Below, piece after piece: positions 14,730 through 64,000 of a stretch of DNA of 64,000 nt. The number at the start of each line of letters is the position of its first letter. Within the stretch, counting starts at the first letter, position 1. Origin of the DNA: Kutzneria viridogrisea (GTDB taxonomy: Bacteria > Actinomycetota > Actinomycetes > Mycobacteriales > Pseudonocardiaceae); NCBI GenBank assembly GCA_014138725.1, contig JACJID010000004.1, forward strand, positions 124,001-188,000, in the 5' to 3' direction. Under the pieces are notes generated by a model. The model ran no database searches. It was not told where the DNA came from and was given only the letters and a program-made list of their open reading frames with translations. The position numbers were made by a program, and so were the translations under genes.

Positions 14730-15065
14730 ATGGACTGGCCAGGTACTCTACCCATCTCCCAGCTCGACAAGTTGCGGATCGAGAGCGCCATTGACGAGTC
14801 GCTGCGAAAGCGACTGCTGGAGACGCCCAAGTCCGTGCTCGCCCAACACGGCATCCACGTCCCCGACGGCGTCGAGCTCAGGATCATCGAGGACACCCCG
14901 AAGATCCACACGATCGTCCTGCTCCCCCACCTGGGCGGCGACATCTCGCTGCGGACGCTGACGCAGAACGCCGCGGCCTCGACCTGGGAGTGCACCACCT
15001 GTACGCCGACCACACCGATCTGCGCGGGGTCGCTGGCCTCCCTCACCTGCATCACTCACAAGTAG
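14730..15065 (+). CDS. lanA: Class II lanthipeptide precursor with NHLP-type leader
   Basis: 111 residues. Residues about 15-66 match the nitrile-hydratase-like leader peptide family: SLRKRLLETPKSVLAQHGI, VPDGVELRIIEDTPKIHTIV and LLP. A Gly69-Gly70 site ends the leader. The 41-residue core (71-111) contains Cys88, 91, 98 and 107 and fourteen Ser/Thr, ending CTPTTPICAGSLASLTCIT plus HK, so up to four (methyl)lanthionine rings are possible. The SD AAGGAG is well placed. The synthetase gene follows after a strong hairpin. The core does not match a lantibiotic I know. A GG-type C39 transporter-protease would normally remove the leader, but none is adjacent. Confidence 0.88.
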   Translation: MDWPGTLPISQLDKLRIESAIDESLRKRLLETPKSVLAQHGIHVPDGVELRIIEDTPKIHTIVLLPHLGGDISLRTLTQNAAASTWECTTCTPTTPICAGSLASLTCITHK

Positions 15066-46575: not shown

Positions 46576-47661
46576 CTAGTCGAAGGTGATCATCTGGCGG
46601 ATCAGCGGGGCGCCCGCGCGCAGGGTGCCAAGCGCGTCGTTGACCTCCGACAGCGGCAGCCGCCTGCTGATCATGCCCTCCAGGTCGAGCCGCCCGGCCC
46701 GCCAGAACCCGAGCAGCCGCTCGTAGTCACGGCGCACGTCGGCCGATCCGTAGAACGAGCCGAGCAGCCGCTTCTCGTGCAGGAACAGCTCCTGGGCGTT
46801 GAACTGCACCACGGCGTCCGCGCGACCGGCGCCGACGATCACGGTCGTGCCGCCGCGCCGGGTGATGTCCCAGGCGGAGCGGATCGTGGCGGGGATGCCC
46901 ACCACGTCGAAGGCGTAGTCGAAGCCCAGCCAGCCGGCCAGCTGCTCGTTGAGCGCGGGCAGGCCCTCGGGCGTGGTGGCGTGCGTCGCGCCGAAGCGCA
47001 GTGCGGTCTCGTGCTTGTCGGTGACCGGGTCGACCGCGATGATCTGCGTGGCCCCGGCCAGCCGGGTGCCCTGGATCACCGAGATGCCCACACCGCCGCA
47101 GCCGATCACCACCACGCTGGACCCCGGCACCACCTTGGCCGTGTTGAGCACTGAGCCGACCCCGGTCATCACCCCGCAGGCCACCAGCGCCGCGATCTCG
47201 TACGGGACCTCGGGATCGACCTTGATCGCCCCGTCGGCGGGGATCACCAGCTCCTCGGCGAAGGTGCCCAGCCCGGCGTAGCCGAAGGCCGGTGTGCCGC
47301 CGACCAGGAAGCGCGGGGCGCTGAACGAGGCGATGGCGTGCACCGAACACAGGTGCGGCTGGCCGCGCAGGCAGTTCGGGCACCGGCCGCAGGGTGGCAC
47401 GAAGGTGACGATCACGTGGTCCCCGGGCACGAGGTGCCGGACCCCGCTGCCGACCTGCACGATCTCGCCCGCGCCCTCGTGACCGACGATTCCGGGTGCC
47501 AGGGCGGGCAGCGTGCCGTTCATGGCCGACAGGTCGCTGTGGCAGACCCCGGAGGCGCGGACTCGCACCCGCACCTCCTCGGGACCCGGATCAGTGGTGC
47601 TCACGTCGTCCCGCAGTTCGAGCTTGTCGTCCCCGATCTGGTTCAGTACGGCAGCCTTCAC
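46576..47661 (-). CDS. Zn-dependent (MDR) alcohol dehydrogenase, AdhD-like
   Basis: 361 residues from GTG 47661 (SD GAGGAG 8 nt upstream; GTG 47670 possible). Medium-chain dehydrogenase: catalytic zinc by Cys in GVCHSDLSA, His-Glu in GHEGAGEI and a later Cys; structural zinc CGRCPNCLRGQPHLC; Rossmann VVVIGCGGVGISVIQG. The class resembles NDMA-dependent/class III-like AdhD enzymes. It heads the long operon and has its own KstR-like box. Possible role: oxidation of the hydroxylated sterol side chain. Confidence 0.87.
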   Translation of the reverse strand: MKAAVLNQIGDDKLELRDDVSTTDPGPEEVRVRVRASGVCHSDLSAMNGTLPALAPGIVGHEGAGEIVQVGSGVRHLVPGDHVIVTFVPPCGRCPNCLRGQPHLCSVHAIASFSAPRFLVGGTPAFGYAGLGTFAEELVIPADGAIKVDPEVPYEIAALVACGVMTGVGSVLNTAKVVPGSSVVVIGCGGVGISVIQGTRLAGATQIIAVDPVTDKHETALRFGATHATTPEGLPALNEQLAGWLGFDYAFDVVGIPATIRSAWDITRRGGTTVIVGAGRADAVVQFNAQELFLHEKRLLGSFYGSADVRRDYERLLGFWRAGRLDLEGMISRRLPLSEVNDALGTLRAGAPLIRQMITFD

Positions 47662-47708
47662 CGGCTTCACTCCTCGTCGAGCTCGCCCCACAGCTACCCG
47701 GCTCACAC

Positions 47709-49212: not shown

Positions 49213-50307
49213 GTGGACTTCTCGCTCACCCAGGCGCAGCAGGACCTGGCGGCGCTGACCCGGGACATCCTCGCCGACCACGTGACGCAGGAGCGCCTGC
49301 GGGCGGTCGAGTCCGGCACCGACCACTTCGACCGGTCACTGTGGACGGTCCTCGGCTCGGCGGGCGTGCTCTCCGCCGCCCTGCCCGAGTCCGCGGGCGG
49401 CTCGGGCTTCGACCTGTTGGAGCAGTGCAGCGTGCTGGTCGAGATCGGCCGGCACGTAGCGCCGGTGCCGTACCTGTGCTCCGTGGTGCAGGCCGCGTCG
49501 GCGATCGCCCACTTCGGCACGCCCGAACAGCGCGAGCGGTGGCTGGCCCCCAGCGGCCTGGTGCTCACCGCGGCGCTGTCCGAGGAGCACAACGAGGACC
49601 CGGCCAAACCCGTGACGCGAGCGGAACTGGTCGCGGATCGGTGGTGCCTGACCGGGGCGAAGACGACCGTGCCGTCCGGGCCGGTCGCCGACCTGTTCCT
49701 GGTGCCCGCGAGCACACCGGACGGGGTGAAGGTCTTCCTCGTGCGGCCCGAGGACGAGGGCGTTCGCCTGGCACGACAGGAGATCGTCGACGGGGACAGC
49801 GCGGCGTGGCTGGAGCTGACAACTGTCGCGCTGCCCCGTGACCGCGAGCTGGCGGTGTCCGCCGACTGGCTGGTGACCCGGGGCACGGTCGGACTGTGCG
49901 CGCTGCAACTCGGTGTGGCCGAACGCGCCCTGGAGCTGACCGCCGAGCACGCCAGGACCCGCGTGCAGTTCGACCGGCCGATCGGCAGCTTCCAGGCCGT
50001 GTCGCAACGCCTCGCTGACGCCTACGTCGCCGTCGAGGCGATCCGGCTCACCCTGTGGCAGGCCGCGTGGCGCGTGGTCGCCGGGCTGCCAGCCGACTCG
50101 GAGGTGGCCACCGCCAAGTTCTGGGCCGCCGAGGCCGGGCACCAGGTCGCGCACACCGCCGTGCACGTCCACGGCGGCATGGGCATCGACCTGGACCACC
50201 CGCTGCACCGCTACTTCGTGGCCGCCAAGCGCACCGAGTTCGCCCTGGGCGGTGCTACGGCGCAACTGCGCCGGATCGGTGCCGCGCTCGCGGCTAGCCC
50301 GGCGTGA
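49213..50307 (+). CDS. fadE27: FadE27-like acyl-CoA dehydrogenase subunit
   Basis: 364 residues, GTG start 10 nt after fadE26 with AGGAG. ACAD subunit with poor conservation of the FAD/active-site segment (LTAALSEEHNEDPAKPVTRA), as expected for the partner subunit, and C-terminal ARTRVQFDRPIGSFQAVSQR and VHVHGGMGIDLDHPLHRYFV. Expected to combine with FadE26. The last 14 bp overlap the converging P450 gene, which starts the indolocarbazole side. Confidence 0.85.
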   Translation: MDFSLTQAQQDLAALTRDILADHVTQERLRAVESGTDHFDRSLWTVLGSAGVLSAALPESAGGSGFDLLEQCSVLVEIGRHVAPVPYLCSVVQAASAIAHFGTPEQRERWLAPSGLVLTAALSEEHNEDPAKPVTRAELVADRWCLTGAKTTVPSGPVADLFLVPASTPDGVKVFLVRPEDEGVRLARQEIVDGDSAAWLELTTVALPRDRELAVSADWLVTRGTVGLCALQLGVAERALELTAEHARTRVQFDRPIGSFQAVSQRLADAYVAVEAIRLTLWQAAWRVVAGLPADSEVATAKFWAAEAGHQVAHTAVHVHGGMGIDLDHPLHRYFVAAKRTEFALGGATAQLRRIGAALAASPA

Positions 50308-51511
50308 GCAGCACCGGCAGTGCGATGAGGCGGCGGCTGAGCAGGTCGGTCTGCCAGCGGGCGGCTGCCGGGGGTTCGGCCAGCCGGGCCTCGGGGAACC
50401 GCCGCAGGAAGGCCTTCAGCGCGGTGCGGGCCTCCAGCCGGGCGAGTCCGGCGCCGACGCAGTAGTGGCTGCCGAGCCCGAAGGTCACGTGGTCGATGAC
50501 CGGCCGGTCCGGCAGGAACCGCTCGGGGCGCGGGTGCACGCGCGGGTCGTGGTTGGCCGCGGCGAGATTGACCAGCACCGGCGTGCCCACCGGGACGTCG
50601 ATGCCCGCCAGCGTGCAGTGCTGCGCGGCGAACCGCCAGGTGGCCAGGGGGAACGGCGGGTGCCGTCGCAGGGCCTCCTCCACGACGGCCTCGACGAACT
50701 CGGGTGTGGCGCCGAGGTGCGTGGGACCGGCGAGCAGTTCGTACAGCGCCGCGGAGATCAGGCTGGCCGTGGACTCGTGGCCGGGCAGCACCAGGCTGGG
50801 CACCCACGCCTTGACCTCGGTGAGCGTGGCCTGGGGCGGGTCCGAGCGGGTCAGCGCGAGCAGGTCGGTGATCAGCCCGGTGGCCAGGCGGTGCGGGTGG
50901 CGGTCGATCACCTCCGCCACCGTGCGGTAGAGCAGCTCCCTGCCCTCGTCGCGCACCGAGGCATCGCCGCCGTAGAAGATCTTCTCGCTGGCCCCGCGCA
51001 GCACGGGGCGGGTGTCGGCGGGCAGCCCCAGCAGAGTGCAGATGATCTCCAGCGGCAGCGGGTAGGCCAGCCCGGCGACCAGGTCCACCGGTTCCTGCCC
51101 GCCCGCGCTCTGCACCGCGTCCAGCAACCGCCCGGTGATCGCCTCGACGGTCGCCGACCACGCGCGGATTCGGGCCGGGCTGAACGCGAGCAGGTGCAGC
51201 TTGCGCAGCCGCGCGTGCTCCTCGCCCTCGCTGGTGACGATGTCCGAGGCGGCGGCGGTCTCCGCGGAGCCGATCAGGCCGCTCTCGTCGACGAACCACG
51301 GCGGCGCGTGGCGTCCCTCCTTGCTGAACCGCGGATCGGTCAGCACCGCGCGGACCAGGTCCGGGTCGGACACGACCCACGCGTGACCGCTCCCCTGGCG
51401 GACTCGCACCACGGGTCCGTGCTCGCGCAGTGCCACCAGGTCCGGGAGCAGATCGTCGTCGCCGTCGCCGCGGTCCAGGGACAGCTCGACAAATGGGGCC
51501 TCAGGGGTCAT
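50294..51511 (-). CDS. Cytochrome P450 (tailoring enzyme of the indolocarbazole operon)
   Basis: 405 residues from ATG 51511, overlapping the StaP-like gene by 4 nt. P450 signatures: I-helix LPGHESTASL (GHEST instead of GxDTT/GHETT), ExxR in EEALRRH, and the heme loop FGLGSHYCVGAGLARLE with Cys351. It looks like a CYP107-like bacterial enzyme, not a StaP or StaN orthologue on the motifs I can compare. Last gene of the operon; it probably hydroxylates or couples the indolocarbazole. The redox partner may be the nearby fdxD product or another ferredoxin. Confidence 0.82.
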   Translation of the reverse strand: MTPEAPFVELSLDRGDGDDDLLPDLVALREHGPVVRVRQGSGHAWVVSDPDLVRAVLTDPRFSKEGRHAPPWFVDESGLIGSAETAAASDIVTSEGEEHARLRKLHLLAFSPARIRAWSATVEAITGRLLDAVQSAGGQEPVDLVAGLAYPLPLEIICTLLGLPADTRPVLRGASEKIFYGGDASVRDEGRELLYRTVAEVIDRHPHRLATGLITDLLALTRSDPPQATLTEVKAWVPSLVLPGHESTASLISAALYELLAGPTHLGATPEFVEAVVEEALRRHPPFPLATWRFAAQHCTLAGIDVPVGTPVLVNLAAANHDPRVHPRPERFLPDRPVIDHVTFGLGSHYCVGAGLARLEARTALKAFLRRFPEARLAEPPAAARWQTDLLSRRLIALPVLLTPG

Positions 51512-52752
51512 GGCGCCAACTCCAGCGGGAGGCGGTCCGGGCCGTGGAAGACCAGGTCCGGTGCGTAGTGGACCGGCTCGGCTGCCAGTGCCATCCGGGA
51601 GAACTCCGCCAGCAGCACACCGAGCCCGATCTCCGCCTCGACCCGGGCCAGTGCGGCGCCGAGGCAGTGGTGGATACCGGAGCCGAAGCCGAGGTGACGG
51701 CCCGGCGCCCGGCCAAGGCGCAGCACGTCGGGCTCGGGGAAGCGGGCCGGATCGCGGTTGGCCGAACCCAGCACGAGCATCAACTCCTCACCGCGGCGGA
51801 TCCGCCGACCGCGCAGCACCGCGTCCCGGTAGGCCCAGCGCCGCACCATCTGCACCGGGCCGTCGTAGCGGATCAGCTCCTCCACGGTGCCGGGCATGAG
51901 CGCCGGGTCGGCGCGCAGCGCGGTGAGCGCCTCGGGGTGGCGCAGCAGGGCCAGCACCGACTTGCTGATCAGGTTCGTGGTCGTCTCGTGGCCCGCGGTG
52001 AGCAGGTGCACGCAGGTGGCCACGATCTCGTGCTCGGTCAGCGGTTCGTCCTGCCCACCGCCGCGCACCAGGAGGGTGATCAGATCGGGGGCGTCCCGGC
52101 CGCGGCGCTCCCGCACCTGGCTGCCGAAGTAGGCGGCCAACTCCACCGCGGCCGCCTCGGCCCGTGCCGCGGCGCCGGGGCCGCGCGCCTGTTGCAGGTC
52201 CAGGGCGCAGCGGCGGAACCAGGCCACCAGCTCCCCCGGCACACCGAGCAGTTGGGCGATCACCAGCAGCGGCAGCGGCGCGGCGAACTCCCCGACCAGG
52301 TCCACCACCGGCCGTCCGCGCAGGGCGGCGGCCAGGTCGAGCGCGATCTCCCGGATCTGCTCGCGCAGCCCGAGGACCACGCGCGGGGAGAGCCTGCCCA
52401 CCAGCGGTGAGCGCAGCCTGGCGTGCCGGGGCGGGTCCTGGAACACCAGCCAGTCCTCGACCAGTGACCGCAGGGTCGGGCACTGCGCGGGCACGAGCGC
52501 GGTGGCCGCCACGTCCTCGGCGTGCACCGCACTGGCGCGGCGGCCGAAGCCGTGCTGATCGGTCAGCACCGCGAGCGCGTCCTCGTAGCCGAAGAGGTAC
52601 CAGCGCCCGCTCGGCCCCTCCGGGGTGAAGTGCACCGGGTCCGCCTCCCGGTAGCGCCGGTACTCCGGGTACGGGTCGGCGATCTCGGCCTGTCCCCAGG
52701 CCCGGGGGTCGAAGCGGCCCGGCAGCCCGCGCCCCAACGCCGTCGCCCTCAT
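51508..52752 (-). CDS. staP: Chromopyrrolate-oxidising P450, StaP/RebP homologue
   Basis: 414 residues from ATG 52752, ATGA overlap with staC. It follows StaP (CYP245A1) along its length: IADPYPEYRRYREADPVH, LVEDWLVFQDPPRHARLRSP, CVHLLTAGHETTTN, RWAYRDAVLR, GSANRDPARFPEPDVL, the heme loop FGSGIHHCLGAALARVEAEI (Cys363) and YAPDLVFHGP. StaP joins the two indole C2 positions of chromopyrrolic acid by aryl-aryl coupling and, with RebC/StaC, gives the indolocarbazole ring. Comparison is from memory of the family. Confidence 0.93.
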   Translation of the reverse strand: MRATALGRGLPGRFDPRAWGQAEIADPYPEYRRYREADPVHFTPEGPSGRWYLFGYEDALAVLTDQHGFGRRASAVHAEDVAATALVPAQCPTLRSLVEDWLVFQDPPRHARLRSPLVGRLSPRVVLGLREQIREIALDLAAALRGRPVVDLVGEFAAPLPLLVIAQLLGVPGELVAWFRRCALDLQQARGPGAAARAEAAAVELAAYFGSQVRERRGRDAPDLITLLVRGGGQDEPLTEHEIVATCVHLLTAGHETTTNLISKSVLALLRHPEALTALRADPALMPGTVEELIRYDGPVQMVRRWAYRDAVLRGRRIRRGEELMLVLGSANRDPARFPEPDVLRLGRAPGRHLGFGSGIHHCLGAALARVEAEIGLGVLLAEFSRMALAAEPVHYAPDLVFHGPDRLPLELAP

Positions 52753-54365
52753 CCTCCGGCCCCCGCTCCGCGGACCTTGTCCGCCAGCCACCCGAGGTCG
52801 CGCGGCAGCTCGTCGCCCCACCAGGCGACGTGGCCGTCCGGGCGGACGAGCACGTGGGCGCGTTCGTACACGCGGGTCACGGCGGGCGCCGGGCACACCG
52901 CGGTGGTCAGCGGCACACCACGCTGGGCGAAGGCGTGCTCCAACTGCCAGCGCCGTTCGGGTTCGGTGCGGCACAGCATGACGAAGTCGGGCCCGAACAA
53001 GTCCAATGTGGACACTCCACCCCGCAGCCAGGCGTGCGGGGCGCGCGACCCCGGGGCCGCGCTCTGCCGCCACGGCTGGTCGCCCCCGGCGGGCGCGGCG
53101 GGATCGACTTGCACGATCGGGGAGCGGTACTGGGCCCCGAAGTGCACCTGCGGGGCGTCGAACTCGCGGCGCAGGTCCGACTCGGCCAGGTGCCGGGACA
53201 TCTCGGCGCGGGCCCGTTCCCCCGCCGCGGACTCCTGGTGCAACTGCGGCGACAGCGGCCTGCGCACCGTGCGCAGCAGGTTGCCGTTCGCCTCCTCCAG
53301 GCTCGCCAGCGCGACCGGCCTGCGCTCCTGCTCGTAGCTGTCCAGCAGGGCCGACCCAGCCCAGCCCGCCAGCTCGGCGGCCAGTTTCCAGCCCAGGTCC
53401 GCCGCCCCACAGATCCCGGTGCTCATGCCGAAACCGCCCGAGAGCGAGAGCGTGTGCGCCGCGTCCCCCACGAGGAACACCCGCCCCTGCCGGAACCGGT
53501 CGGCGACCCGGTGGGTCAGCCGCCAGGGACTGTCGGACAACACCTCCACCGGGGTCGGCAGCGCGATCGCTTGGGAGACAAGGGACAGCGCGTCCATTTC
53601 GGCACCGGCACCGCCGTCCGCCCCGACGACCAGGTTGTACAGCTCGCACCCGTCCACGGCCCGCATCGGGAAGCGCAGGGTGGCGGAGAGCATCAGGAAG
53701 TGCACCAGGGCGTTGCGCTCGCCGAGCTGGTCGCGCAGCTTCGGTGCGCGGAAGAGGATGTTGCGGAACAGGCGGCTCTCGTGCCGGGCGGGCGCGTCGA
53801 TCCCGCACGCCTTGCGCACCTGCGAGGAGGAGCCGTCGCAGGCCACCAGGTACCGGGCACGCACCAGCAGGGGCTTGCCGTCGAGGCCCTCCCTGAGCAC
53901 GGCCAGCACGCCGTCCTCGCACTGGCTGAAGTCCTCCAGCGTGCACTCCGTGCGCACCGGGCCCTCCGGGTGCACGCCGACCTCGCGCATCAGCAGCGGG
54001 GTCAGCCAGTGCGCCGGGCATATCTGGTTGGACTCGGGGGTGTGCTCGGGCAGCGAGCGGCTGTCGGCGGTGCCCAGGGCGAGCCGGAACAGCTCGTGCC
54101 CGCCGACCCTGGTGACCCACGCGGCGTCGAGCGGGTGGTCGCCGGGCCAGCCCGCGTCGCGGATCTTCTCGGCAACCCCCCACCTGCGGAACAGCTCCAT
54201 GGAACGCGGGCCGATGGTGCTGACCTTCGGGTGGGCCACCGTGCCGTCCCCCGCCTCGGCGAGCAGGAAGTCCACTCCCCGGTAGCGCAGGTCCATGGCC
54301 AGCGACAGGCCGACCGGCCCCGCGCCCACGATCAGCACGTCGGTCTCGCAGTGGTGCGCGCTCAC
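52749..54365 (-). CDS. staC: StaC/RebC-type FAD monooxygenase
   Basis: 538 residues from GTG 54365 (GTGA overlap with staD). Near-colinear with RebC: VGAGPVGLSLAMDLRYRGVD, TIGPRSMELFRRWGVAEKIR, AGWPGDHPLDAAWVTRVGGH, VACDGSSS, GRVFLVGDAAHTLSLSGGFG, ERAHVLVRPDGHVAW. It directs oxidation of the StaP product. At the positions equivalent to RebC Phe216 and Arg239 it has Val221 and Asn244, the StaC-type residues. This predicts K252c (staurosporinone) rather than arcyriaflavin A. Residue correspondence relies on remembered RebC sequence and numbering. Confidence 0.92.
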   Translation of the reverse strand: MSAHHCETDVLIVGAGPVGLSLAMDLRYRGVDFLLAEAGDGTVAHPKVSTIGPRSMELFRRWGVAEKIRDAGWPGDHPLDAAWVTRVGGHELFRLALGTADSRSLPEHTPESNQICPAHWLTPLLMREVGVHPEGPVRTECTLEDFSQCEDGVLAVLREGLDGKPLLVRARYLVACDGSSSQVRKACGIDAPARHESRLFRNILFRAPKLRDQLGERNALVHFLMLSATLRFPMRAVDGCELYNLVVGADGGAGAEMDALSLVSQAIALPTPVEVLSDSPWRLTHRVADRFRQGRVFLVGDAAHTLSLSGGFGMSTGICGAADLGWKLAAELAGWAGSALLDSYEQERRPVALASLEEANGNLLRTVRRPLSPQLHQESAAGERARAEMSRHLAESDLRREFDAPQVHFGAQYRSPIVQVDPAAPAGGDQPWRQSAAPGSRAPHAWLRGGVSTLDLFGPDFVMLCRTEPERRWQLEHAFAQRGVPLTTAVCPAPAVTRVYERAHVLVRPDGHVAWWGDELPRDLGWLADKVRGAGAGG

Positions 54366-57300
54366 TTCGCCCTCCTCGGCGGGACGCCCCGCTCGGCGGT
54401 GAAGACGCCGGACAGGAACTCCAGCGTGTCCACCACACCGACGGGCGCCAGGAAGCACCGGCGCGCCGCGGCGGCCAGGTGGGCGAAGCGCAGCGCGATG
54501 GCGCGCGCGGCCACGTCGGGTCGCGGCAGGTACGCGGGCACCGACTCCAGTTCGAAGGACGGCCCCGCGGTCCTGCCCCGCCTGCCCGAGGGGACCATCA
54601 CCAGCACCTCGGCCAGCGGCCGCATGACGCCGGTCATCACCTCGATCGCCATGTTCATCAGCTCCGAACGCCGCAGGCTGCTGTCGGGCACCTGGTTGAA
54701 GTGCTGGACCATCAGCTGCAACTGCATGAAGTAGGACCGGTTGAACAGCCGCATGAGCTCCCGCGCCCCGGGGTCGGTGACCAGGTCCTTGGCCGGATCT
54801 CCCTCGTGCAGCGTGGGATTGCGCACCGTGGGGTAGGCCGGGCTCCATGGCAGCAACCGCCCGTCGCGCCCGCGCACCTGTTCCGCGGCCAACTCCCGGG
54901 ACATGCCAAGGAACACCTCGAAGTGCGAGCCGCTGCCGGGGCCCGCGGGGCCGAGCACCCCGCCCTCGCCCTGTTCGGTGACCACGTCGATGGCGAACAG
55001 CGCGCTGCTCAGGTCATCGACCTCCAACTGGTAGTCCGGGTGCACGGCGTTGATCGACTCCCGCAGGAACAGGTGGTGCTCCCCGCCGCCGCGCCCGTGG
55101 TCCACCATGAACAGCTCGGGCACCCGTTGCAGCCCGGCGCGGATGGCCGCGTAGAGCTCGCTCAGCGAGCCGTAGAGGTGGCTGCGCGCGGGCTCGTGCC
55201 GTTCGGCGCCGCTGATCTCGCCCACCAGGGACTCGGGCCGCTCGATCGCCGCGAACCGCTCCAGGGCCCCCAGCCCCAGCGGCTCCAGCGCGAAGTCCAG
55301 TGGTACGGCCAGCCGGGCGTTGATCGTGCCGAAGTCCACCCTGGGCACGTAGAACGGTTCACCGATGGCCATGAGCACGTTGTTGACCAGCAGGAAGTGC
55401 GTCATCTCCTCACGGGCCACCGCGAACAGGCCGCCGCGCAGACCGCCCGGCAACGCCTCGCCCTCGGCACCGCAGGCCAGCCGGACCCGGTCGGCGGTCC
55501 ACTCGCCGCGCTCGTGGTAGGCCCTTGCGGCGGCCGGGGTCGGCACGGAGAACGCCGCGTAGAGGTACTGCAACAGCACCGCGAGTTCGATCGTGACCGC
55601 CTGCCGCAGTGCGAGCACCAGGTCGCCGCGGGTGGTGATCTCCCAGTCCGGCCGCGTCCCGCCGGGTACGAGGGCGGGCACCTCGCCCGCGCCGGACTGC
55701 GCGCGCAGGAACTTCAGCAGCAGCATGGCCTTGGGCTGCGACAGGTCCCGCGTCGGCGGCATGTAGTAGGTCTTGGACTTGTTGCGCGGGTCGCACATCT
55801 GCCAGATCAACCGCGCGTGCGTGTTCACCCGGAACCGGTCGGCCAGGCTGAACACCTCCTCCTTCATGAACGGGTGGAACAGTTCGTAGAACGCGAAGAC
55901 CTCCCGGTACAGCAGGTCGAAGGTGGCCTCCTGCTGCGGCACCTCGGCCAGCCGCCAGTCGTCGGGCAGCACCCGGACCGCGATCGAGCCCGCCGCCGAC
56001 CAGTGGCCGAGCGCGTCCAGCTCGTCGTGGCCCAGTCGCGCGGATCCGGGCTGCTCCGGATCGCAGGGCAGGTCCCCGGCGCCGGTCGCCAGCAGCAGCC
56101 GCGTCGTGCCCGCCCGGGCACCACGGATCGCCAACCGCCCGTACCCCCGGTCGTCGGTCCGCACGGTGCAGGTCCCCGCCCATTCGCCAGCCCCGCCCGT
56201 GCGCACCCGCACGATCTGCACGTCCAGGCTGCGGGCCGTGGCCGACCGCGCCGCCCGCTCGCGGGGCAGGGCACGGGGGTTGAAGAACTGGTGGACCTCG
56301 ACCTCGACCGGTCCGGGTTCGCCCCGGACGAAGGAGCGGAGCTCGACCTCCACGTCCTGCTCGGCGTCGGTGCTGTCCCGCGGGTGGTCCAGGATCTGGC
56401 ACGCCTCCTCGGCCTGCACGAGGATCTCCCGCTCCCGCAACAGGTCCACGCGCCTGCCGTCCCAGTCGACCCCGACCAGCAGGAGCGCGTGGTCCTCGGT
56501 GCGCGGCAGCGGGTCGGCCGTGGGCACGGCGATGATCCCGCTGGTGAGGCTGCGGCCGGCACCGAGGTACGCCTCGCGCGGCACCGTGGCGACGAGCCGG
56601 TCGGAGCCCGCCGTGCGCAGCTCCAGGTCGCCCAGGTCCACCGGCTGCGCCCCGTGACCCGTGACGGGCACCGCGGTCACGGCGTTCAGGGTGGCCCAGC
56701 CGGGTTCCACGCGGACGGTGAGGTTGTGCAACGGGGGCGGGTGCCCGCCGGGCACGGGCACGAGCAGGCGACCTGCCGGGTAGCCACGGGGCTCGCCCTC
56801 CCACCAGGGCGCGATGGTGCCGCGCAGCACTCTGCGTTCCGGTGCGTCCGGCCGGGTGGGCACCGCGACCGCGCCGAGGGCGAACTGCACCATGACACCG
56901 CCCGCGCCCCCGGACTCCACCGTGGCGCACAGCAGGCTGGCGGCAGGTGAGGCCGAGGCACCCTCCAGCCAGTCCATGCCCCCGTCCTGGGTGATCGCGA
57001 ACTGGTAGACGGTGGAGCAGCCCAGTCTCGGCGCGTGGTCCCGCCCGCCGAGGCCGCGGACGTGCAGGGGGTTGTGCCATCTCGGTGCGTGCATGCCGCG
57101 CACCTCGCCGACGAACACGTAGCCCACGTCGTGCGAACGGCCCAGCCGCCCGAAGCAGAACCTGCCGACCATCAGCGTGGTGGTCCATGCCGAGGCGGGG
57201 TCCACGTCGAACACCCGGGCGCGGTTGGCGGTGGTCGCCAGGTACGGGTTGTAGTGCCCCCACATGTCCACGCTGCGCCCCACCAGGGGGTCGTCCCGCC

Positions 57301-57613
57301 GGATCACGCCCGGGGAGAGCTCGGTGCTGACGATCCTCGCGTCGATCGAGAAGTGGCCGCTGCCGCCGAAGTTGCTGCCCTTGGCCGCGCTGAACAGCCC
57401 GTCCTCGCGCGGCTGCCCCAGCTCGTCCAGCCGCGGCCCCAGGCTGTCCAGGTGTTCGTGGTACTCCTCGGCGGGACGGCTCGGGTCGAAGGGACCGTCG
57501 GCGGTGAGCGCGGTGTTGGTGGCCAGGTCCACCGTGCCGCCGCGGGTGCCGGTGGGCAGGTTCGCCGTGGCCACCCCGGCGAAGTGCAGGCGGGGCAGGT
57601 CGAACACGCTCAT
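54362..57613 (-). CDS. staD: Chromopyrrolic acid synthase, RebD/StaD homologue
   Basis: 1083 residues from ATG 57613. It begins MSVFDLPRLHFAGVATANLP and continues LGRSHDVGYVF, IWQMCDPRNKSKTYYMPPTR, VTIELAVLLQYLYAAFSVPT, EHHLFLRESINAVHPDYQLE and GVMRPLAEVLVMVPSGRRGR, the pattern of RebD/StaD/VioB. These heme proteins couple two indole-3-pyruvate imines into chromopyrrolic acid. It is some 70 residues longer than RebD (about 1013), mostly in the N-terminal half. Stop and start overlap the neighbouring staC and the repeat ORF, so translation is coupled. Confidence 0.94.
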   Translation of the reverse strand: MSVFDLPRLHFAGVATANLPTGTRGGTVDLATNTALTADGPFDPSRPAEEYHEHLDSLGPRLDELGQPREDGLFSAAKGSNFGGSGHFSIDARIVSTELSPGVIRRDDPLVGRSVDMWGHYNPYLATTANRARVFDVDPASAWTTTLMVGRFCFGRLGRSHDVGYVFVGEVRGMHAPRWHNPLHVRGLGGRDHAPRLGCSTVYQFAITQDGGMDWLEGASASPAASLLCATVESGGAGGVMVQFALGAVAVPTRPDAPERRVLRGTIAPWWEGEPRGYPAGRLLVPVPGGHPPPLHNLTVRVEPGWATLNAVTAVPVTGHGAQPVDLGDLELRTAGSDRLVATVPREAYLGAGRSLTSGIIAVPTADPLPRTEDHALLLVGVDWDGRRVDLLREREILVQAEEACQILDHPRDSTDAEQDVEVELRSFVRGEPGPVEVEVHQFFNPRALPRERAARSATARSLDVQIVRVRTGGAGEWAGTCTVRTDDRGYGRLAIRGARAGTTRLLLATGAGDLPCDPEQPGSARLGHDELDALGHWSAAGSIAVRVLPDDWRLAEVPQQEATFDLLYREVFAFYELFHPFMKEEVFSLADRFRVNTHARLIWQMCDPRNKSKTYYMPPTRDLSQPKAMLLLKFLRAQSGAGEVPALVPGGTRPDWEITTRGDLVLALRQAVTIELAVLLQYLYAAFSVPTPAAARAYHERGEWTADRVRLACGAEGEALPGGLRGGLFAVAREEMTHFLLVNNVLMAIGEPFYVPRVDFGTINARLAVPLDFALEPLGLGALERFAAIERPESLVGEISGAERHEPARSHLYGSLSELYAAIRAGLQRVPELFMVDHGRGGGEHHLFLRESINAVHPDYQLEVDDLSSALFAIDVVTEQGEGGVLGPAGPGSGSHFEVFLGMSRELAAEQVRGRDGRLLPWSPAYPTVRNPTLHEGDPAKDLVTDPGARELMRLFNRSYFMQLQLMVQHFNQVPDSSLRRSELMNMAIEVMTGVMRPLAEVLVMVPSGRRGRTAGPSFELESVPAYLPRPDVAARAIALRFAHLAAAARRCFLAPVGVVDTLEFLSGVFTAERGVPPRRAK

Positions 57614-57756
57614 AACCGCACCTCGCTGACGCTCGGCGCAGCGCTTCGCGCGGGCACTGTGTTAGATGATTCACTCGCAAGCTCGCTCACGTGCCGCACC
57701 TCGCTGGCGCTCGGCGCAGCGCTTCGCGCAGGCCCTGCGGTGGAAGATTCGCTCAT
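57610..57756 (-). other. 48-aa repeat ORF coupling staO and staD
   Basis: ATG 57756 overlaps the staO stop (ATGA) and its TGA (57612-57610) overlaps the staD ATG (57613). The peptide is two tandem repeats, MSESSTAGPARSAAPSASEV (then RH) and VSELASESSNTVPARSAAPS (then VSEVRL). The DNA is the dispersed cassette also found at 9219. No known domain. It may be only a spacer that preserves coupling, or a real small protein. Confidence 0.45.
57613..57756 (-). repeat. Two tandem copies of the dispersed SEVR cassette
   Basis: The units are 57692-57613 (full length) and 57756-57693 (shorter, lacking the ELA codons). Each runs from (A/G)TGAGCGA to GCGAGGTGCGG, i.e. from a start-codon context to an SD-like end. 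The staO 3' end (GGCGAGGTGCGGTTATGAGCG) shares the same terminal sequence, suggesting insertion or duplication at an ATGA junction. Confidence 0.75.
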
Positions 57757-59279
57757 AACCGCACCTCGCCGGGGTTCAACGGGCGCACCCCGGTAGGGCA
57801 GACAGCGATCCTGTGCGGCCTGGGCTGGTACCGGTGGATCCGGCGCACGGCCTCCTCGGCCGACTCGATCGCCCCGTTGATCCACGCCGCGGTCGAGGAA
57901 CAGTGCTCACCCGCGAAGAACAGCCGGTTCTCCGGGCGGGCGGCCTCGATCCGCTCCTGCTCACAGGACAGGGCGTCCTGGCCCCAGCGCGCCACCCCCG
58001 CTCCGCCGCTCCACCAGGACTGGCCCCAGGCGGAGCTCACCGCGTCCACGACCATGCCCGGCCTGAGCAGTTCGGGGTGGGTCATGCTCAACTCCCGCAG
58101 CGCGGCCACGTGCCTTGCGGCGGAAGGCATGCGGCCGAGCACGTCGGCGTCCTCCCCGATGGTGTAGCTGGCCAGCAGTGCGGCGCCCTCGGCCGGATCG
58201 CCCTCCACCGCCGGGTAGTAGGTCTGCCGCAGCTGGCCGCCGGTGAACGAGGCGCCGCCGGTGATGCCGTCCTGCTCCCAGAACGCCTCGCGGCAGTGGA
58301 AGGCGATCTTGGTGCCGGACCAGTACCGCACGCCCCGGATCGCGGCCATCTTGCTCTCGCTCAGGCCGTGCAGCCGCAACCTGCGCAGCACGGCGAACGG
58401 GATGGTGCACAGGACGTAGTCGCAGCGCCGGGTCACGACCTGGTCGGACAGTCGCAGGTCCACCAGCACGTCCCGCTCGCGCACCGTGATGCCGACGACC
58501 TCCTGCCCGCAGGTGATCGGGCCGCGGACCCGCTCGCCGAGCCTGCGCACGATCTGGTCCATGCCGCCTTCGAGCCGGATCAGTCGCGGGCTGGTCTCGC
58601 TCAGCACGTCGTCGATGAACCGGGCAAGCCTTCCGCCGCACCAGGTCCTGGCCTCCGGGTGCGCCGCGAAGAAGGCGTGCAGGTCGACCTGGTCCCGCCC
58701 ACGCAGGAAGCAGGCCGGATCGACCTGGTCGACCAGGTCGAGCAGACCGCGGCCCAGTTCCTCGCGCAGGCTCCTGCGGAACTCCGCGGGCCCGATGGCC
58801 TCGCCGACGGCCAGCAGCCGCGCACCGAACAGGACGGTTGCCTCGCGGTAGTCCGCACCGGCCAGCAGTGCCCGGTAGTCCTCGAGCAGTACGCGCGGCA
58901 CGTCGCGCTGGCGCACGGGACCGGAATCGGTTGCGTAGTACGCGTTGTCCTCGGAGAACAGGGTCCTGAACTCGCGGACCTGGTCGGCGAGACCGAGTTC
59001 GGCGATGTAGTGCATCGTCCGCAGGTGATCGGCCGGTACCCGCATGGCGCCCAGTTCCACGAGTGGACCCGCGGCGAACCGGTGCGTGTGGATCCGGCCA
59101 CCGATCCGGCCGCTGCCCTCCAGGACCTCGACCCGATGACCGAGCCGCTCCAACTCGTGGGCGGCCACCAGACCCGCCACGCCCGCGCCGAGCACGGTGA
59201 CCCGCTTCGCGTTCGCCGAGAGCGGTGCGTCCGTGCCCCGGACCGGACTCCTGTGCTGTGCGGCGATTCTCTTCACCAT
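57753..59279 (-). CDS. staO: L-tryptophan oxidase, RebO/StaO homologue
   Basis: 508 residues from ATG 59279. Flavin amine oxidase: VTVLGAGVAGLVAAHELERL, GRIGGRIHTHRFAAGPLVEL, GAMRVP, and the C-terminal ENRLFFAGEHCSSTAAWING, AIESAEEAVRRI. It converts L-Trp to indole-3-pyruvate imine, the substrate of StaD/RebD. It is about 35 residues longer than RebO (473) because of extra N- and C-terminal segments; the C-terminus PTGVRPLNPGEVRL ends in the repeat-like EVRL. First gene of the operon. A PaaX-like TGAC-N4-GTCA site lies 3 nt upstream. Confidence 0.92.
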   Translation of the reverse strand: MVKRIAAQHRSPVRGTDAPLSANAKRVTVLGAGVAGLVAAHELERLGHRVEVLEGSGRIGGRIHTHRFAAGPLVELGAMRVPADHLRTMHYIAELGLADQVREFRTLFSEDNAYYATDSGPVRQRDVPRVLLEDYRALLAGADYREATVLFGARLLAVGEAIGPAEFRRSLREELGRGLLDLVDQVDPACFLRGRDQVDLHAFFAAHPEARTWCGGRLARFIDDVLSETSPRLIRLEGGMDQIVRRLGERVRGPITCGQEVVGITVRERDVLVDLRLSDQVVTRRCDYVLCTIPFAVLRRLRLHGLSESKMAAIRGVRYWSGTKIAFHCREAFWEQDGITGGASFTGGQLRQTYYPAVEGDPAEGAALLASYTIGEDADVLGRMPSAARHVAALRELSMTHPELLRPGMVVDAVSSAWGQSWWSGGAGVARWGQDALSCEQERIEAARPENRLFFAGEHCSSTAAWINGAIESAEEAVRRIHRYQPRPHRIAVCPTGVRPLNPGEVRL

Positions 59280-59282
59280 CGT

Positions 59283-59294
59283 TGACCCCCGTCA
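59283..59294. promoter_or_regulatory. Fourth TGAC-N4-GTCA (PaaX-type) site, at the staO start
   Basis: TGACCCCCGTCA. The flanks TTGAC..CCGTCACGACA agree with the ligase operator (12393-12410) at 16 of 18 positions. It is not over a -35 but next to the staO initiation codon, so it would act as a roadblock if bound. Function uncertain. Confidence 0.35.
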
Positions 59295-59415
59295 CGACAA
59301 GCCCTCGCGCTGCGCCTGCCACGTACGGTGGTCGGTTCACCGCGCCCCGCAGCCCAGTTTCCGCTGCGGGGACCGGAGTCCGGGAGGAGGCCATTGACCT
59401 GGCCCCGGTGTGACG

Positions 59416-59444
59416 GAACGGCCTGCCTCGGCGGCAGGCCGTTC
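59416..59444. terminator. 12-bp stem-loop downstream of the multicopper oxidase gene
   Basis: GAACGGCCTGCC (59416-59427) pairs perfectly with GGCAGGCCGTTC (59433-59444), loop TCGGC. It lies between the oxidase stop and the staO promoter region and probably terminates the oxidase transcript. Confidence 0.6.
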
Positions 59445-59515
59445 CCCCGCGACCGCTGGGGGCGGGCGGACCAGGCGGGGGGACCAGTGATCACCCGCCG
59501 CGGTCGCGGTGTCTG

Positions 59516-61330
59516 TCAGTGGTGGCCGCCGTGCCCGCCCATGGGGTGCAGCGCGAGCACGTCGGCGGGCACCACGACGAACGGGCGCATCATCATGTCG
59601 TCCTCGTGTTCCAGGATGTGGCAGTGGTACATGAACTCACCGGTGCCACCGTCGAACTGGCCCACGACCGGGATGAGTTCGCCCGGCCCCACCCTGATCA
59701 CGTCCTTCCAGCCCTGCTCGTTGGCATCCAGCACACCGGGGCTGTCGTGGGTGATCGGCTGTCCGGGCAGGGTGCCGAACCCGGTGTCGCCGATCCTGGT
59801 GAACGCGCCGACGGTGAGCTTGTCCCGGCTCAGCGCCTGGAAGGCCATCAGGTGGAGGTGCATCGGGTGGCTGCACGACATGCCCGCGCCGCTGAGGTTG
59901 AGCAGGTTCCACTGCTCCCACCCGCCGTGCACGACGAAGTAGTTGACGGTGTCCTCGAACGCGGTGGCGACCCGCTTGAGCGTGCGCAGCGGCTGCCCCG
60001 GCAGCTGCACCTGCACCACCCCGTCCTGGGGCAGGGTAACCGAGGATTCCTCGACTTCCACCATCTCCCAGATCATGGGGCCCCCGGTCAGCTGGGGCGG
60101 GGTCAGCAGCACCCACCGGTGCGCGTGCGAGGTGGGCAGGGTGTCGTGGGTCAGCCGCACGAAGGAGGCGGACAGCTTCTTGGGCGGGCAGAAGTCCTCC
60201 GCCCCCGCGAAGCGGGTCACGTCGAACCGCATGACCTGCGGGCTGGCCGCGGCGTCCGGCGCGTCGTTGAGCAGTTGCACGGATCCGCCCTCGAACTGAC
60301 TGAAGTCCACCAGCAGGTCGGCGCGCTCGGCCGGGGCGAGCACGAGCCCGCCCTCGGGCAGTTCCACCGGCTCGGGCAGCAGGCCACTGTCGGTGCCGAT
60401 CTGCTTGACCACCTGCCGCAGCACCCCCGGCTCGAACACCGCGCCGGACTCGTCGGCCAGGCGCAGCCGGTAGAACCGGGAGTTCGACGCGTTGAGCAGC
60501 CGGAACCGGTACCACTGCGGTGTGACCTCGCAGTAGGGCCAGATCCTGCCGTTGACGAGGGTGAACGGGCCGGTGAACGGGTACTCGCCGGAGGGATCGC
60601 GGTAGAGCTTGCGCATCAGGCGGCCGGTGAGTTCGCCCTCCGGGGTGGTGGCCAGGTTCCGGTCGCAGATAACCAGCGGGATTTCCCTGTCCCCGTGGGG
60701 AAGTCCGAGCGCGTCCTCCTCCCCGTCGCGGATCAGGTACACACCGGCCAGTCCCGCCATGACGTTGAGCGCGGTGATGCCCATCGCGTGGTCGTGGTAC
60801 CACAGCGCGGTGGCGGGCTGGTCGTTGGCGTACTCCACCAGCTGCGAGTTGCCCGAGTGCACGGCGTTGAACGACCACCCGTCGCTGGCGGCGTTGGTCC
60901 GGGCACCGTGCAGGTGCACCACCGTCCACGACCGCAGCAGGGAGGCCGCGGCGATCACCTCGTCCTGCTCGGTGTGGCCGGGCCTGGACGGTCCCTCGGG
61001 GTCGGTGGTGCGCACGTCGAGCACCGGGAGCGTGCCCTTGATCTCGTTGCGCCACTCCACCCACAACCGCTGTCCCCGGCGCACCTCGATGGTCGGCCCG
61101 GGAAAGCTTCCGCCGAAGGTCCAGAGCTCGGAGGGCGGCAGCTCCGAGTGCAGTCGCTGCCAACTGGCCCGCAGCCGCACCGTGAGCACCCCTCCGTCGG
61201 GGCGCAGCACGGGCGGCACGGGTAACAGGTCGAGATAGGGGGTCAGGCTGCCGCGGGGGGCGCACCGCTCCGGGACGGGTGGCTCGTCGATCGGACCGGC
61301 CAGCTCCGCAGGCGAACACGGGACCCGCAT
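59516..61330 (-). CDS. Multicopper oxidase, phenoxazinone-synthase-like
   Basis: 604 residues from ATG 61330 (SD AGGAG). All copper motifs are present: HLHG (His139, 141), WYHDH (His179, 181), HPMHLH near 480, and HCHILEHED (His569, Cys570, His571, His575). The HLHGARTNAASDGWSFNAV segment is like phenoxazinone synthase of Streptomyces and CotA-type laccases. No signal peptide is seen, so it may work in the cytoplasm. It ends in His-rich MGGHGGHH. It would oxidise phenols or aminophenols, possibly dimerising a product of the adjacent indolocarbazole genes. The link is by position only. Confidence 0.87.
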   Translation of the reverse strand: MRVPCSPAELAGPIDEPPVPERCAPRGSLTPYLDLLPVPPVLRPDGGVLTVRLRASWQRLHSELPPSELWTFGGSFPGPTIEVRRGQRLWVEWRNEIKGTLPVLDVRTTDPEGPSRPGHTEQDEVIAAASLLRSWTVVHLHGARTNAASDGWSFNAVHSGNSQLVEYANDQPATALWYHDHAMGITALNVMAGLAGVYLIRDGEEDALGLPHGDREIPLVICDRNLATTPEGELTGRLMRKLYRDPSGEYPFTGPFTLVNGRIWPYCEVTPQWYRFRLLNASNSRFYRLRLADESGAVFEPGVLRQVVKQIGTDSGLLPEPVELPEGGLVLAPAERADLLVDFSQFEGGSVQLLNDAPDAAASPQVMRFDVTRFAGAEDFCPPKKLSASFVRLTHDTLPTSHAHRWVLLTPPQLTGGPMIWEMVEVEESSVTLPQDGVVQVQLPGQPLRTLKRVATAFEDTVNYFVVHGGWEQWNLLNLSGAGMSCSHPMHLHLMAFQALSRDKLTVGAFTRIGDTGFGTLPGQPITHDSPGVLDANEQGWKDVIRVGPGELIPVVGQFDGGTGEFMYHCHILEHEDDMMMRPFVVVPADVLALHPMGGHGGHH

Positions 61331-61639
61331 GGTGACTCCTCACTGTGGGCACAGGGGAAGGATGTGACGGGGCGGGCGGACACAGGTGATGTCCTCCGCT
61401 CCACGGCGCGAACCCGGTGGGGGCGCCACGTCCACTGTGTCGCCACACGGCACTGGCCGCCAGCGAGCAATCAGGTCATACGGCTGACCACTATTGGGTC
61501 CCCGGGACCACGCACCCAGCGCGACGAGGCGCGCCCGGGACTGGGCCGTCCGGATGGTCGAGACCACTACTGGAACCCGGGTGGCGGCAGCCTTCCCGCC
61601 CTCAGCCTGGCAGTCGCCCGGTGGCGGGGTGCGGACCGG
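61331..61639. other. Intergenic region with direct repeats upstream of the oxidase
   Basis: 309 bp without a gene. GACCACTATTGG (61486-61497) and GACCACTACTGG (61562-61573) form an 11-of-12 direct repeat 76 bp apart, each followed by a CCCGGG-like tract. A copper- or drug-responsive regulator site is possible. I could not assign a promoter with confidence. Confidence 0.35.
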
Positions 61640-62740
61640 TCACCGCATGTCCCCCAGCCTGCCCAAGGTTTCCGCCAACTCGGTGAGCAGCCGGTGCACG
61701 ACCTCGGCCACGGGCAGCACCTCGTTCATCCGGCCGACGACCTGTCCGACCGGCATCGACACGACCCCCGGGTCACCGGCGAGCGCGATACGCTGGTGTG
61801 CCCGCGCCACCAACAGGTTCTGCAAGGGCATGGGCAGCGGTTCGGGGGCGCCGGGCTCGTTCCACGCCTCGGTCCACCTGGTGCGCAGCAGCCGCGCGGG
61901 CTTGCCCGTGTAGACCCGGGACCGCACGGTGTCCCCGGACCCGGCGGCGAGCAGCGCCCGCTGGGTAGCTGAGTCCGATGTGGACAGTGAGTACTCGGCG
62001 GTGGTGAGCCAGCACGATCCCATCCACACCGCGTCCGCGCCCAGCGCCAGCGCCGCGGCGATCTGCCGCCCGCTGCCGATGCCCCCGGCCGCGAGCACGG
62101 GCACCTGCCCGCCGACCGCGTCGACCACCTCCGGCACCAGCACCATGCTGGCGACTTCCCCGGTGTGCCCGCCCGCCTCGTAGCCCTGGGCCACGACCAG
62201 GTCCACCCCGTTGGCGACGTGCCGCCGCGCGTGCTCGGCGGTACCGGCCAGGGCCGCCACCGGCACACCCCGCTCGTGTGCCCGCTCGGTCACGTCCCGG
62301 GGCGGCGAGCCCAGGGCGTTGGCGATCAGTCGCACCGGGTGGGCCAGCGCGACGTCCACGTGGGACCGCGCCACGGAGTGCAGCCAGCCCAGCACGCCGT
62401 CACGCCGGTCGTCCTCGGGCAGCGGCGGCACGCCGAGGCGTTCGAGGGTGCGGTCCACGAACTCGCGGTGCCCGGCGGGGATCAGCGCGTCCAGGTCGAC
62501 CGCCGCACCCTCGGTGGGAACGCTCGCGGGCATCACGATATCCACGCCGTAGGGCCTGCCCCCGGTGTTGGCGTCCATCCAGTGCAGGACCTCGTCCAGC
62601 TCGGCGGCCTCGTTGAACCGCACGCAGCCCAGCACACCCAGGCCGCCGGCACGGCTGATCGCGGCGGCCACGTGCTCGGAGGGCGTGAACCCGAAGATCG
62701 GGTGCTCGATGCCGAACCGCTCACACAGCTCGGTGCGCAT
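61640..62740 (-). CDS. Nitronate monooxygenase-like FMN oxidoreductase
   Basis: 366 residues from ATG 62740 (GTG 62749 possible). 2-nitropropane-dioxygenase/NMO TIM barrel: GIEHPIFGFTPSEHVAAAIS, AGGLGVLG, VVAQGYEAGGHTG and VLAAGGIGSGRQIAAALALG for FMN binding, GADAVWMGSCWLTTAEY. Members in mycobacteria include steroid-ring reductases such as IpdC, but this is a different branch and I cannot assign the substrate. It overlaps the acyl-CoA synthetase gene by 20 bp, so the two are coupled. Confidence 0.8.
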   Translation of the reverse strand: MRTELCERFGIEHPIFGFTPSEHVAAAISRAGGLGVLGCVRFNEAAELDEVLHWMDANTGGRPYGVDIVMPASVPTEGAAVDLDALIPAGHREFVDRTLERLGVPPLPEDDRRDGVLGWLHSVARSHVDVALAHPVRLIANALGSPPRDVTERAHERGVPVAALAGTAEHARRHVANGVDLVVAQGYEAGGHTGEVASMVLVPEVVDAVGGQVPVLAAGGIGSGRQIAAALALGADAVWMGSCWLTTAEYSLSTSDSATQRALLAAGSGDTVRSRVYTGKPARLLRTRWTEAWNEPGAPEPLPMPLQNLLVARAHQRIALAGDPGVVSMPVGQVVGRMNEVLPVAEVVHRLLTELAETLGRLGDMR

Positions 62741-64000
62741 GGGCCTCACCCGCCGTCACCTCGTAGCGCACCGCGGGCTCGTGCTCCTCCACGTGCCTTC
62801 GCGCCCAGCGGTAGTCCGGCTTGCCGCTGGGCAGGCGGCTCACCGAGTCGACCAGCCACAGGCTGCGCGGCACCTTGTAGCCCGCGATCCGGCCACGCAC
62901 ATGTGCGTCCAAATCGGACAGTGAGACGGTACGACCGGGGCGGGGCTGCACGACCGCGGCCACACGCTGGCCGAGCCGCTCGTCCGGCACACCGAGCACC
63001 AGGGCGTCGAACACGTGGGGATGCGACTTGAGCACACCCTCGACCTCCTCGGGGAACACCTTCTCCCCCGCCGTGTTCACGCACATGTTGCCCCGCCCCA
63101 GCAGGGTCACCGTGCCGTCCTGCTCCAGCCGGGCGAAGTCCCCCGGCACCGCGTAGCGCTTGCCATCGACCTCGGTGAACAGCTCAGCGGTCTTGGCCGG
63201 GTCCTTGTAGTAGCCCAGTGGGACGTGTCCGCCGCGGGCCAGTCGCCCGACCACGCCGGGGCCAACGGGCGTGCCGTCCTCGCCGAGCACGATGCTGTCC
63301 GGGTCCGCCTTCACGCGCGGTCCACCGCGGTGTTCCTGCCCCTGTGCGACCACGCCGATGCCGGTGAAACCTGTTTCAGACGAGCCGATGGCGTCGGTGA
63401 TCACCACGTTGGGGAAGGTGGCCAGGTACTGGTCCTTGACCGCCTGGGAGAACAGGGCCGCGCTGCTGGAGATCGCGACCACCGAGGAGGCGTCCCACTG
63501 ACCGTCCCGATAGGACTCGATCAGGGGGCGGGCCATGGCGTCGCCGACGATGGCGAGCACGTTGACCCGGTGCCGCTGCACCGCCTGCCACACCTGCGCC
63601 GCGTCGAACTGCGCCACCAGCACGACCGTGCTCCCCGTGAACAGCGCACCCAGCGCGGCCCACTGCGCGGCGCCGTGGATCATCGGCGCGGCGCACAACC
63701 GGACCAGGCCGAAGTCCTTGCCCTGCCTGGCCTGCTGCCACTCGTCGGCGACCGGGACCCCCGTCACGAAGTCGATGCCGCCGCCGAGCACGCGCCACAC
63801 GTCCTCCTGGCGCCACAGCACGCCCTTGGGGTGACCGGTCGTGCCCCCGGTGTAGAGGATGTAGACGTCGTCCGGGCTGCGCTCGGGGAAGTCGCGCTCC
63901 GGCGAGGACTCCGCCAGCGCGGCCTCGTACTCCGTCGCCGGGTAGGTGACTGGCTCCGCCGAGCCGTCCTCGACCACGACCACGTGCCGGATCGAGTCCA
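62721..64000 (-). CDS. FadD19/FadD17-like acyl-CoA synthetase, N-terminus beyond the window
   Basis: The C-terminal 426 or so codons of an ANL ligase: YILYTGGTTGHPKGVLWRQE (P-loop), IGSSETGFTG, GDFARLEQDGTVTLLGRGN, CVNTAGEKVFPEEVEGVLKS, and catalytic Lys in LPSGKPDYRW. The WRQED context and the spacing are typical of the FadD3/17/19 group that activates steroid side-chain acids. The gene continues past 64000. It lies on the other side of the indolocarbazole cluster from fadE26-fadE27, where a fadD17-like gene is expected. Substrate: a sterol-derived carboxylic acid (inferred). Confidence 0.83.
   Translation of the reverse strand, partial: DSIRHVVVVEDGSAEPVTYPATEYEAALAESSPERDFPERSPDDVYILYTGGTTGHPKGVLWRQEDVWRVLGGGIDFVTGVPVADEWQQARQGKDFGLVRLCAAPMIHGAAQWAALGALFTGSTVVLVAQFDAAQVWQAVQRHRVNVLAIVGDAMARPLIESYRDGQWDASSVVAISSSAALFSQAVKDQYLATFPNVVITDAIGSSETGFTGIGVVAQGQEHRGGPRVKADPDSIVLGEDGTPVGPGVVGRLARGGHVPLGYYKDPAKTAELFTEVDGKRYAVPGDFARLEQDGTVTLLGRGNMCVNTAGEKVFPEEVEGVLKSHPHVFDALVLGVPDERLGQRVAAVVQPRPGRTVSLSDLDAHVRGRIAGYKVPRSLWLVDSVSRLPSGKPDYRWARRHVEEHEPAVRYEVTAGEAHAHRAV

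Follow-up and report, generated by a model that had tools for sequence, protein, structure and literature searches.

The stretch of DNA analysed here (the window: 64,000 nucleotides of Kutzneria viridogrisea, contig JACJID010000004.1) contains a five-gene operon, StaO-StaD-StaC-StaP-P450b (50294-59279), in which homologues of the four enzymes of the indolocarbazole aglycone are followed by a second cytochrome P450, here termed P450b. Six open reading frames (ORFs), the five of the operon and that of a multicopper oxidase (MCO) preceding it, are open at the coordinates given below, all on the minus strand. An earlier reading of the letters alone (the sequence-only reading) had placed StaO, StaD, StaC, StaP and an additional P450 in this order on one strand, and the ORFs as well as family and structure matches agree with it.

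50294-51511, minus strand: second cytochrome P450 (P450b), 405 amino acids, window type of the StaN superclade; orthologues at 67% and 66% identity
51508-52752, minus strand: StaP homologue (indolocarbazole-forming P450), 414 amino acids; best match in the PDB 2z3t
52749-54365, minus strand: StaC homologue, flavin adenine dinucleotide (FAD) monooxygenase, 538 amino acids, GTG start; V221, N244, A118 and V246 of StaC type
54362-57613, minus strand: StaD homologue (chromopyrrolic acid synthase), 1083 amino acids
57607-57769, no strand: StaO/StaD junction, imperfectly duplicated in tandem; identical 20-nt copies lying 143 bp apart, and 61-nt copies of 87% similarity lying 78 bp apart
57753-59279, minus strand: StaO homologue (flavin L-tryptophan oxidase), 508 amino acids; flavin amine oxidase by Pfam
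59415-59445, minus strand: perfect hairpin between MCO and StaO, 13-bp stem and 5-nt loop; probable terminator of the MCO gene
59516-61330, minus strand: PhsA/CotA-type MCO, 604 amino acids; inside the inserted block, probably outside the operon
50343-61653, no strand: block missing here in five other genomes of the genus (approximate extent)

The genes of the operon are tightly packed, with 4-bp overlaps at three of the four joints (StaD/StaC, StaC/StaP and StaP/P450b), while 139 bp separate StaO from StaD and 236 bp separate the MCO gene from StaO. Within the duplicated StaO/StaD junction, a second ATG that is out of frame with StaD sits at the StaO stop. All four aglycone enzymes are encoded as full-length ORFs, in agreement with the complete aglycone pathway proposed earlier. 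Among solved structures, the StaP homologue matches 2z3t, which we take to be StaP, with 392 bits, compared to 232 bits for the next best. A VioB equivalog assignment for the StaD homologue was rejected, with 717 bits under the NCBIfam cut-off of 1250, and the protein is better read as StaD/RebD type. The aglycone steps are ordinary, and the point of interest is P450b in the absence of a sugar enzyme.

Indeed, no glycosyltransferase, halogenase or methyltransferase was found by Pfam among the 57 called genes of the window (five of them without any match at E 1e-6), as the sequence-only reading had stated, nor among 16 further genes in the next 18 kb downstream (one without a match; one cut end gene lay outside the scan). 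The gene set comes from a simple purpose-made ORF caller, which is not exhaustive, since it missed the P450b of a related locus (L016; L and G denote our loci and genomes). A scan of 50000-62800 for promoters and terminators found nothing.

StaC type and relatives of the second P450

The best solved relative of the StaC homologue is 4eip (704 bits), followed by RebC 2r0c (688 bits); 4eip, entered in the PDB as a putative FAD-monooxygenase, is presumably RebC-10x. Ten diagnostic positions were defined as the differences between RebC-10x (4eip) and RebC (2r0c) in the alignment, and the StaC homologue has a StaC-like residue at eight of them, V221 and N244 included; at the other two, E37 and A236, it agrees with RebC. 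In the alignment, F216 and R239 of RebC are matched by Val221 and Asn244, so that the earlier assignment of both to the positions separating StaC from RebC stands. RebC-10x itself is credited with StaC-like activity in PMC10851217. Since both key residues and eight of the ten positions are StaC-like, K252c is the best prediction for the product of the StaC homologue.

The V/N pair recurs across related loci, which reach about 10 kb to each side of StaD and were taken from the best 80 of 103 hits plus fetched relatives; the rows are related by descent. It is present in 18 of 47 StaC rows, each from a locus that also encodes a P450 of the StaN superclade; among the other 29 rows only one locus does (L024). 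StaC scores 8 to 10 of 10 in the 13 loci that combine StaG with a P450 of the true StaN clade. Not included in these rows are L016 (on the same contig as L140), L017 (at a contig end, no StaC) and L073 (StaC in pieces). In the StaC tree, all V-N rows fall on one side of a branch, weakly (69/29), and the window is joined with G502 (98/94).

For P450b, the best solved relative is 8k1x (277 bits, 42% identity), and both the I-helix motif PGHEST and the heme loop FGLGSHYCVG are intact. The PDB entry of 8k1x is titled only “Cytochrome P450”; it is taken here as StaN, because it is 98% identical to a P450 beside StaG in a cluster of G929 that also has StaO, StaD and StaP, and 73-83% identical to 15 other P450s from loci with StaG. 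With a generic P450 outgroup, the P450 tree divides the superclade into a StaN side of 23 rows (99/99) and a window side of six rows (92/87). Every row on the StaN side is from a locus that has StaG (L028 and L175 being the same gene). The window side comprises the window trio (100/99), a Saccharothrix pair and G583, and the stretches fetched for these six rows showed no StaG. By this placement P450b is not StaN, but belongs to the sister clade of StaN, which refines the earlier description as simply an additional P450: the gene is present in the operon as described, and its product is to be assigned to the StaN superclade. An identity with StaN was rejected on its position outside the StaN clade, the 42% identity to 8k1x and the lack of StaG in locus and genome.

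Beyond the window trio, the nearest P450 (48-50%) lies close to a contig end in G583 (L170 11414-12583), next to genes that by eye resemble those for a MarR regulator and an enoyl-CoA hydratase. In G866, StaG (62%) and a StaN-side P450 (L171 1366-3934) are found together, and no StaD was found in the genome.

The cluster, considered from this window only by the sequence-only reading, is found elsewhere too. P450b has orthologues at 67% and 66% identity in two of 389 other genomes of the family, the next best matches being 50% (G583) and 47%, and a sample of 394 genomes of the class gave no further match above 44% at E 1e-65. Both orthologues lie directly behind StaO-StaD-StaC-StaP, in G502 (L016; the Pseudonocardiales metagenome genome JAFATA010000025.1, 87% complete) and in G525 (a single contig, under the genus label of Saccharothrix algeriensis), with StaO at 68% and 64% in the two operons. 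In G525 all four joints are 4-bp overlaps, so that its StaO/StaD junction is plain, unlike the duplicated junction of the window. The five-gene order with P450b is kept in three genera, and no sugar-attaching enzyme was found. A search of the whole window genome gave no StaG orthologue, the best match (85 bits, 35%) covering the C-terminal half only, whereas the StaG of two Lentzea loci (L144 and L145) scores 555-596 bits, and G525 likewise has none (best match 72 bits). Thus, the possibility raised earlier of a glycosyltransferase beyond the window finds no counterpart either in the 18 kb downstream or, for StaG, in the genome. Among the titles and abstract openings listed from the open-licence literature, none describes an indolocarbazole cluster that has a StaN-type P450 and no glycosyltransferase, and no paper naming 8K1X was found; as evidence that such a description is lacking, this is weak.

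In three genomes taken as Lentzea (G562, G540 and G654), StaC and a related StaN-superclade P450 form one ORF of 924-930 amino acids (L144 2356-5130, L145 1886-4678 and L173 16451-19243), located beside StaG, StaN, sugar-type genes and a methyltransferase-like gene; two of the three genomes are nearly identical. These loci are similar to the L. kristufekii cluster of PMC13200232. That source describes the L. kristufekii cluster as flanked by a P450 and a methyltransferase, for which its authors proposed, without testing, hydroxylation and methylation toward TAN-999, and its results section makes no mention of a fusion (PMC13200232). The survey required StaG and StaN, so that the operon type of the window would not have been returned by it (PMC13200232).

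Proposed pathway and its alternatives

In the proposed pathway, StaO and StaD would convert two molecules of L-tryptophan to chromopyrrolic acid, from which StaP together with the V/N-type StaC would form K252c, the free staurosporine aglycone. P450b would then oxidise the sugar-free K252c, the likeliest outcome being the insertion of one oxygen to give a hydroxy-K252c, while the MCO would remain outside the scheme as a separately transcribed neighbour. On the sequence evidence, we consider this overall reading, with hydroxylation as the most likely oxidation, to be probable with some reserve. The first four steps are suggested by homology and the StaC residues, and the aglycone as the substrate of P450b by the gene order of the operon, the lack of a glycosyltransferase and the fusion of StaC to a P450 in a related lineage. 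As to the type of reaction, the choice between hydroxylation and oxidative coupling is a guess.

Several observations weigh against this pathway. The link between the V/N pair and the superclade P450 has an exception in L024, where StaG and a superclade P450 occur with a StaC of C/R type (4/10), and a clean V/N rule is further contradicted by L035, with StaG (54%) and a StaC of F/R type (3/10) and no such P450. In the StaC tree G525 is not placed with the window and G502. In the P450 tree the window side does not reach the strict support threshold, and an earlier tree that included StaP rows did not resolve how the Saccharothrix pair, the window trio and the StaN side branch; for both trees the tool warned of long branches meeting. 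G583 has its P450 on the window side though the genome is without a StaD match, so that this side is not strictly tied to indolocarbazoles. The P450s fused to StaC group with the StaN side and come from clusters with StaG, and therefore provide only an indirect argument for an aglycone substrate. Furthermore, a gene located more than about 10 kb from StaD would escape the locus comparison, and the lack of StaG in G502 (none at E 1e-15) applies to a metagenome genome that is 87% complete. Finally, against leaving the MCO outside the scheme, a different MCO (30%) is encoded upstream of StaO on the opposite strand in two Kutzneria loci (L019 5867-7723 and L031 4837-6435).

Alternatively, P450b, alone or with the MCO, may couple two molecules of K252c into a dimer. 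StaN forms the second C-N link, from the sugar to the second indole (PMC13200232), and without a sugar such chemistry could conceivably join two aglycones. No sequence feature indicates coupling, the MCO is not conserved, and the proposal for the Lentzea P450/methyltransferase cluster is hydroxylation and methylation (PMC13200232), so that a dimer appears unlikely. A more far-reaching version holds that P450b represents a branch of the StaN superclade without glycosyltransferases, which has free K252c as its natural substrate and dimerises aglycones (N-N, N-C or C-C) by StaN-like chemistry at the indole nitrogen, and that the sugar bridging of staurosporine arose from such an aglycone oxidase upon recruitment of StaG; this is a speculation to which we give little credence.

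The MCO was considered earlier as a possible pathway enzyme, and it does lie inside the inserted block on the same strand as the operon, and the L019 and L031 loci of two other Kutzneria have their MCO beside a different StaO. It matches phenoxazinone synthase 3gyr (491 bits) among solved structures, and a PhsA equivalog assignment was rejected (678 bits, NCBIfam cut-off 950). The 81-nt stretch with the hairpin between MCO and StaO folds with a z of -3.1, and none of 200 shuffles was as good. Perfect 13-bp hairpins with a loop of 3-8 nt occur at four places in the 64 kb (near 9395, 18144, 22793 and 59415), each in a gap that separates two called genes, and resemble terminators that lack a T-run (the scan for T-runs covered 50000-62800). 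In addition, the MCO is absent from the orthologous operons of G502 and G525, and its closest relative (68%, G489) has no match to StaO, StaD or StaC in the fetched 20 kb. A P450 about 2.3 kb from the latter is 41% identical to StaP (229 bits), a level that unrelated solved P450s reach with 232 bits. PhsA-like MCOs are also widespread in the family, with matches at E 1e-50 in 49 of 249 genomes. Because of the hairpin before StaO and the two orthologous operons without an MCO, the gene is most likely a separately transcribed neighbour, in a transcription unit distinct from the operon, and a role of the MCO in acting on the alkaloid is doubtful.

P450b could also be a working StaN that bridges a sugar attached by an N-glycosyltransferase encoded elsewhere in the genome. 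P450b is a relative of StaN (42% to 8k1x), and the genome has matches to nucleoside diphosphate (NDP)-hexose 2,3-dehydratase in two regions and 45 glycosyltransferase-like matches at E 1e-5. By contrast, the best StaG match is the half-length one described above, the same operon occurs in the single-contig genome G525 without StaG, and P450b lies outside the clade whose loci all carry StaG. We therefore regard sugar bridging by P450b as rather improbable.

It is also conceivable that the product of the operon is finished by enzymes of a second indolocarbazole locus of the genome, on C1 (L009 636-9211; G000:C1 about 560635-569210). This locus encodes StaO (65%), StaD (62%) and StaP (57%), together with two tailoring genes, for an O-methyltransferase and an FAD monooxygenase. 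The fetched stretch contains no StaC at StaC-like identity, the FAD monooxygenase being 32% identical to StaC; it shares 55-57% identity with genes located upstream of StaODCP in L039, L041, L042, L045 and L064. The same gene set is present in loci of Kutzneria, Pseudonocardia and Actinoplanes (L019, L022, L027, L030, L031 and L050). An indolocarbazole-like cluster, kal11, is mentioned for Kutzneria albida in PMC4210621. Because G466 and G474 have a locus of the L031/L019 type without an orthologue of P450b, this locus type can stand alone, and finishing of the operon's product by the second locus is quite unlikely.

A RebC-like StaC homologue yielding arcyriaflavin A, for which the RebC letters at E37 and A236 could be invoked, is very unlikely, given the eight StaC-like positions, both key ones included, and the V-N side of the StaC tree (69/29).

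StaN is known for closing the second sugar bond of staurosporine, and here its sister enzyme occurs without any sugar-attaching enzyme found. The five genes make testable how a StaN-type P450 would act on a bare indolocarbazole, and whether sugar bridging originated in aglycone oxidation. Both K252c and oxidised forms of it are kinase-inhibitor scaffolds, so that a new oxidised aglycone would also be of practical interest.

Insertion site and neighbouring genes

The block that contains the operon and the MCO gene is an insertion into an Mce4-type uptake locus, the flanks of which match Pfam Mce4_CUP1 and MlaE. Of six further genomes of the genus, five show the empty site, which consists of an acyl-CoA dehydrogenase gene, one to three small ORFs and a nitronate monooxygenase gene, with no alkaloid genes between them; in the sixth genome (G426), no match to the neighbouring acyl-CoA dehydrogenase was obtained. 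DNA similarity to the empty sites ends near 50307-50342 and returns near 61654-61697, and the window showed no significant remnant of the small ORF that occupies the empty site.

Elsewhere in the window (44181-45692 and 46576-47670) and in L007 (2275-4986), genes are present that are missing at the same places in five compared genomes of the genus, namely those for an aldehyde and an alcohol dehydrogenase, a DICT-domain protein and a photolyase-related protein. A LanM-like lanthionine synthetase (DUF4135 and LANC_like) is encoded at 15270-18086, with an ORF of 97 amino acids without a Pfam match just upstream (14772-15065), and the two are possible lanthipeptide genes.

Comparison with known systems

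The window shares StaO, StaD, StaP, a V/N-type StaC and a P450 of the same superclade with staurosporine clusters, which comprise StaO, D, P, C, G, N and sugar genes. It differs from them in that the inserted block lacks StaG, the sugar genes, a regulator and a methyltransferase, in having its P450 in a separate clade, and in its compact five-gene operon. In the Lentzea clusters of G562 and G540, a V/N-type StaC is paired with an extra StaN-superclade P450, as in the window, but in these and in G654 that P450 forms a single ORF with StaC, and the clusters additionally carry StaG, a true StaN, sugar genes and a methyltransferase. The loci of Saccharothrix algeriensis (L051) and G541 (L143) resemble the window in having StaO, D, C and P plus a P450 of 42-46% identity and no StaG match, but their genes lie on both strands, StaC scores 5/10 and a gene located beside StaC resembles, by eye, a glycosyltransferase other than StaG. 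The acfXODCP cluster of Streptomyces venezuelae is reportedly a small StaODCP cluster of arcyriaflavin type without a sugar, with an FAD monooxygenase as the extra gene. In the loci resembling acfXODCP (L039, L041, L042, L045 and L064), StaC is of V/R type, compared to the V/N type of the window.

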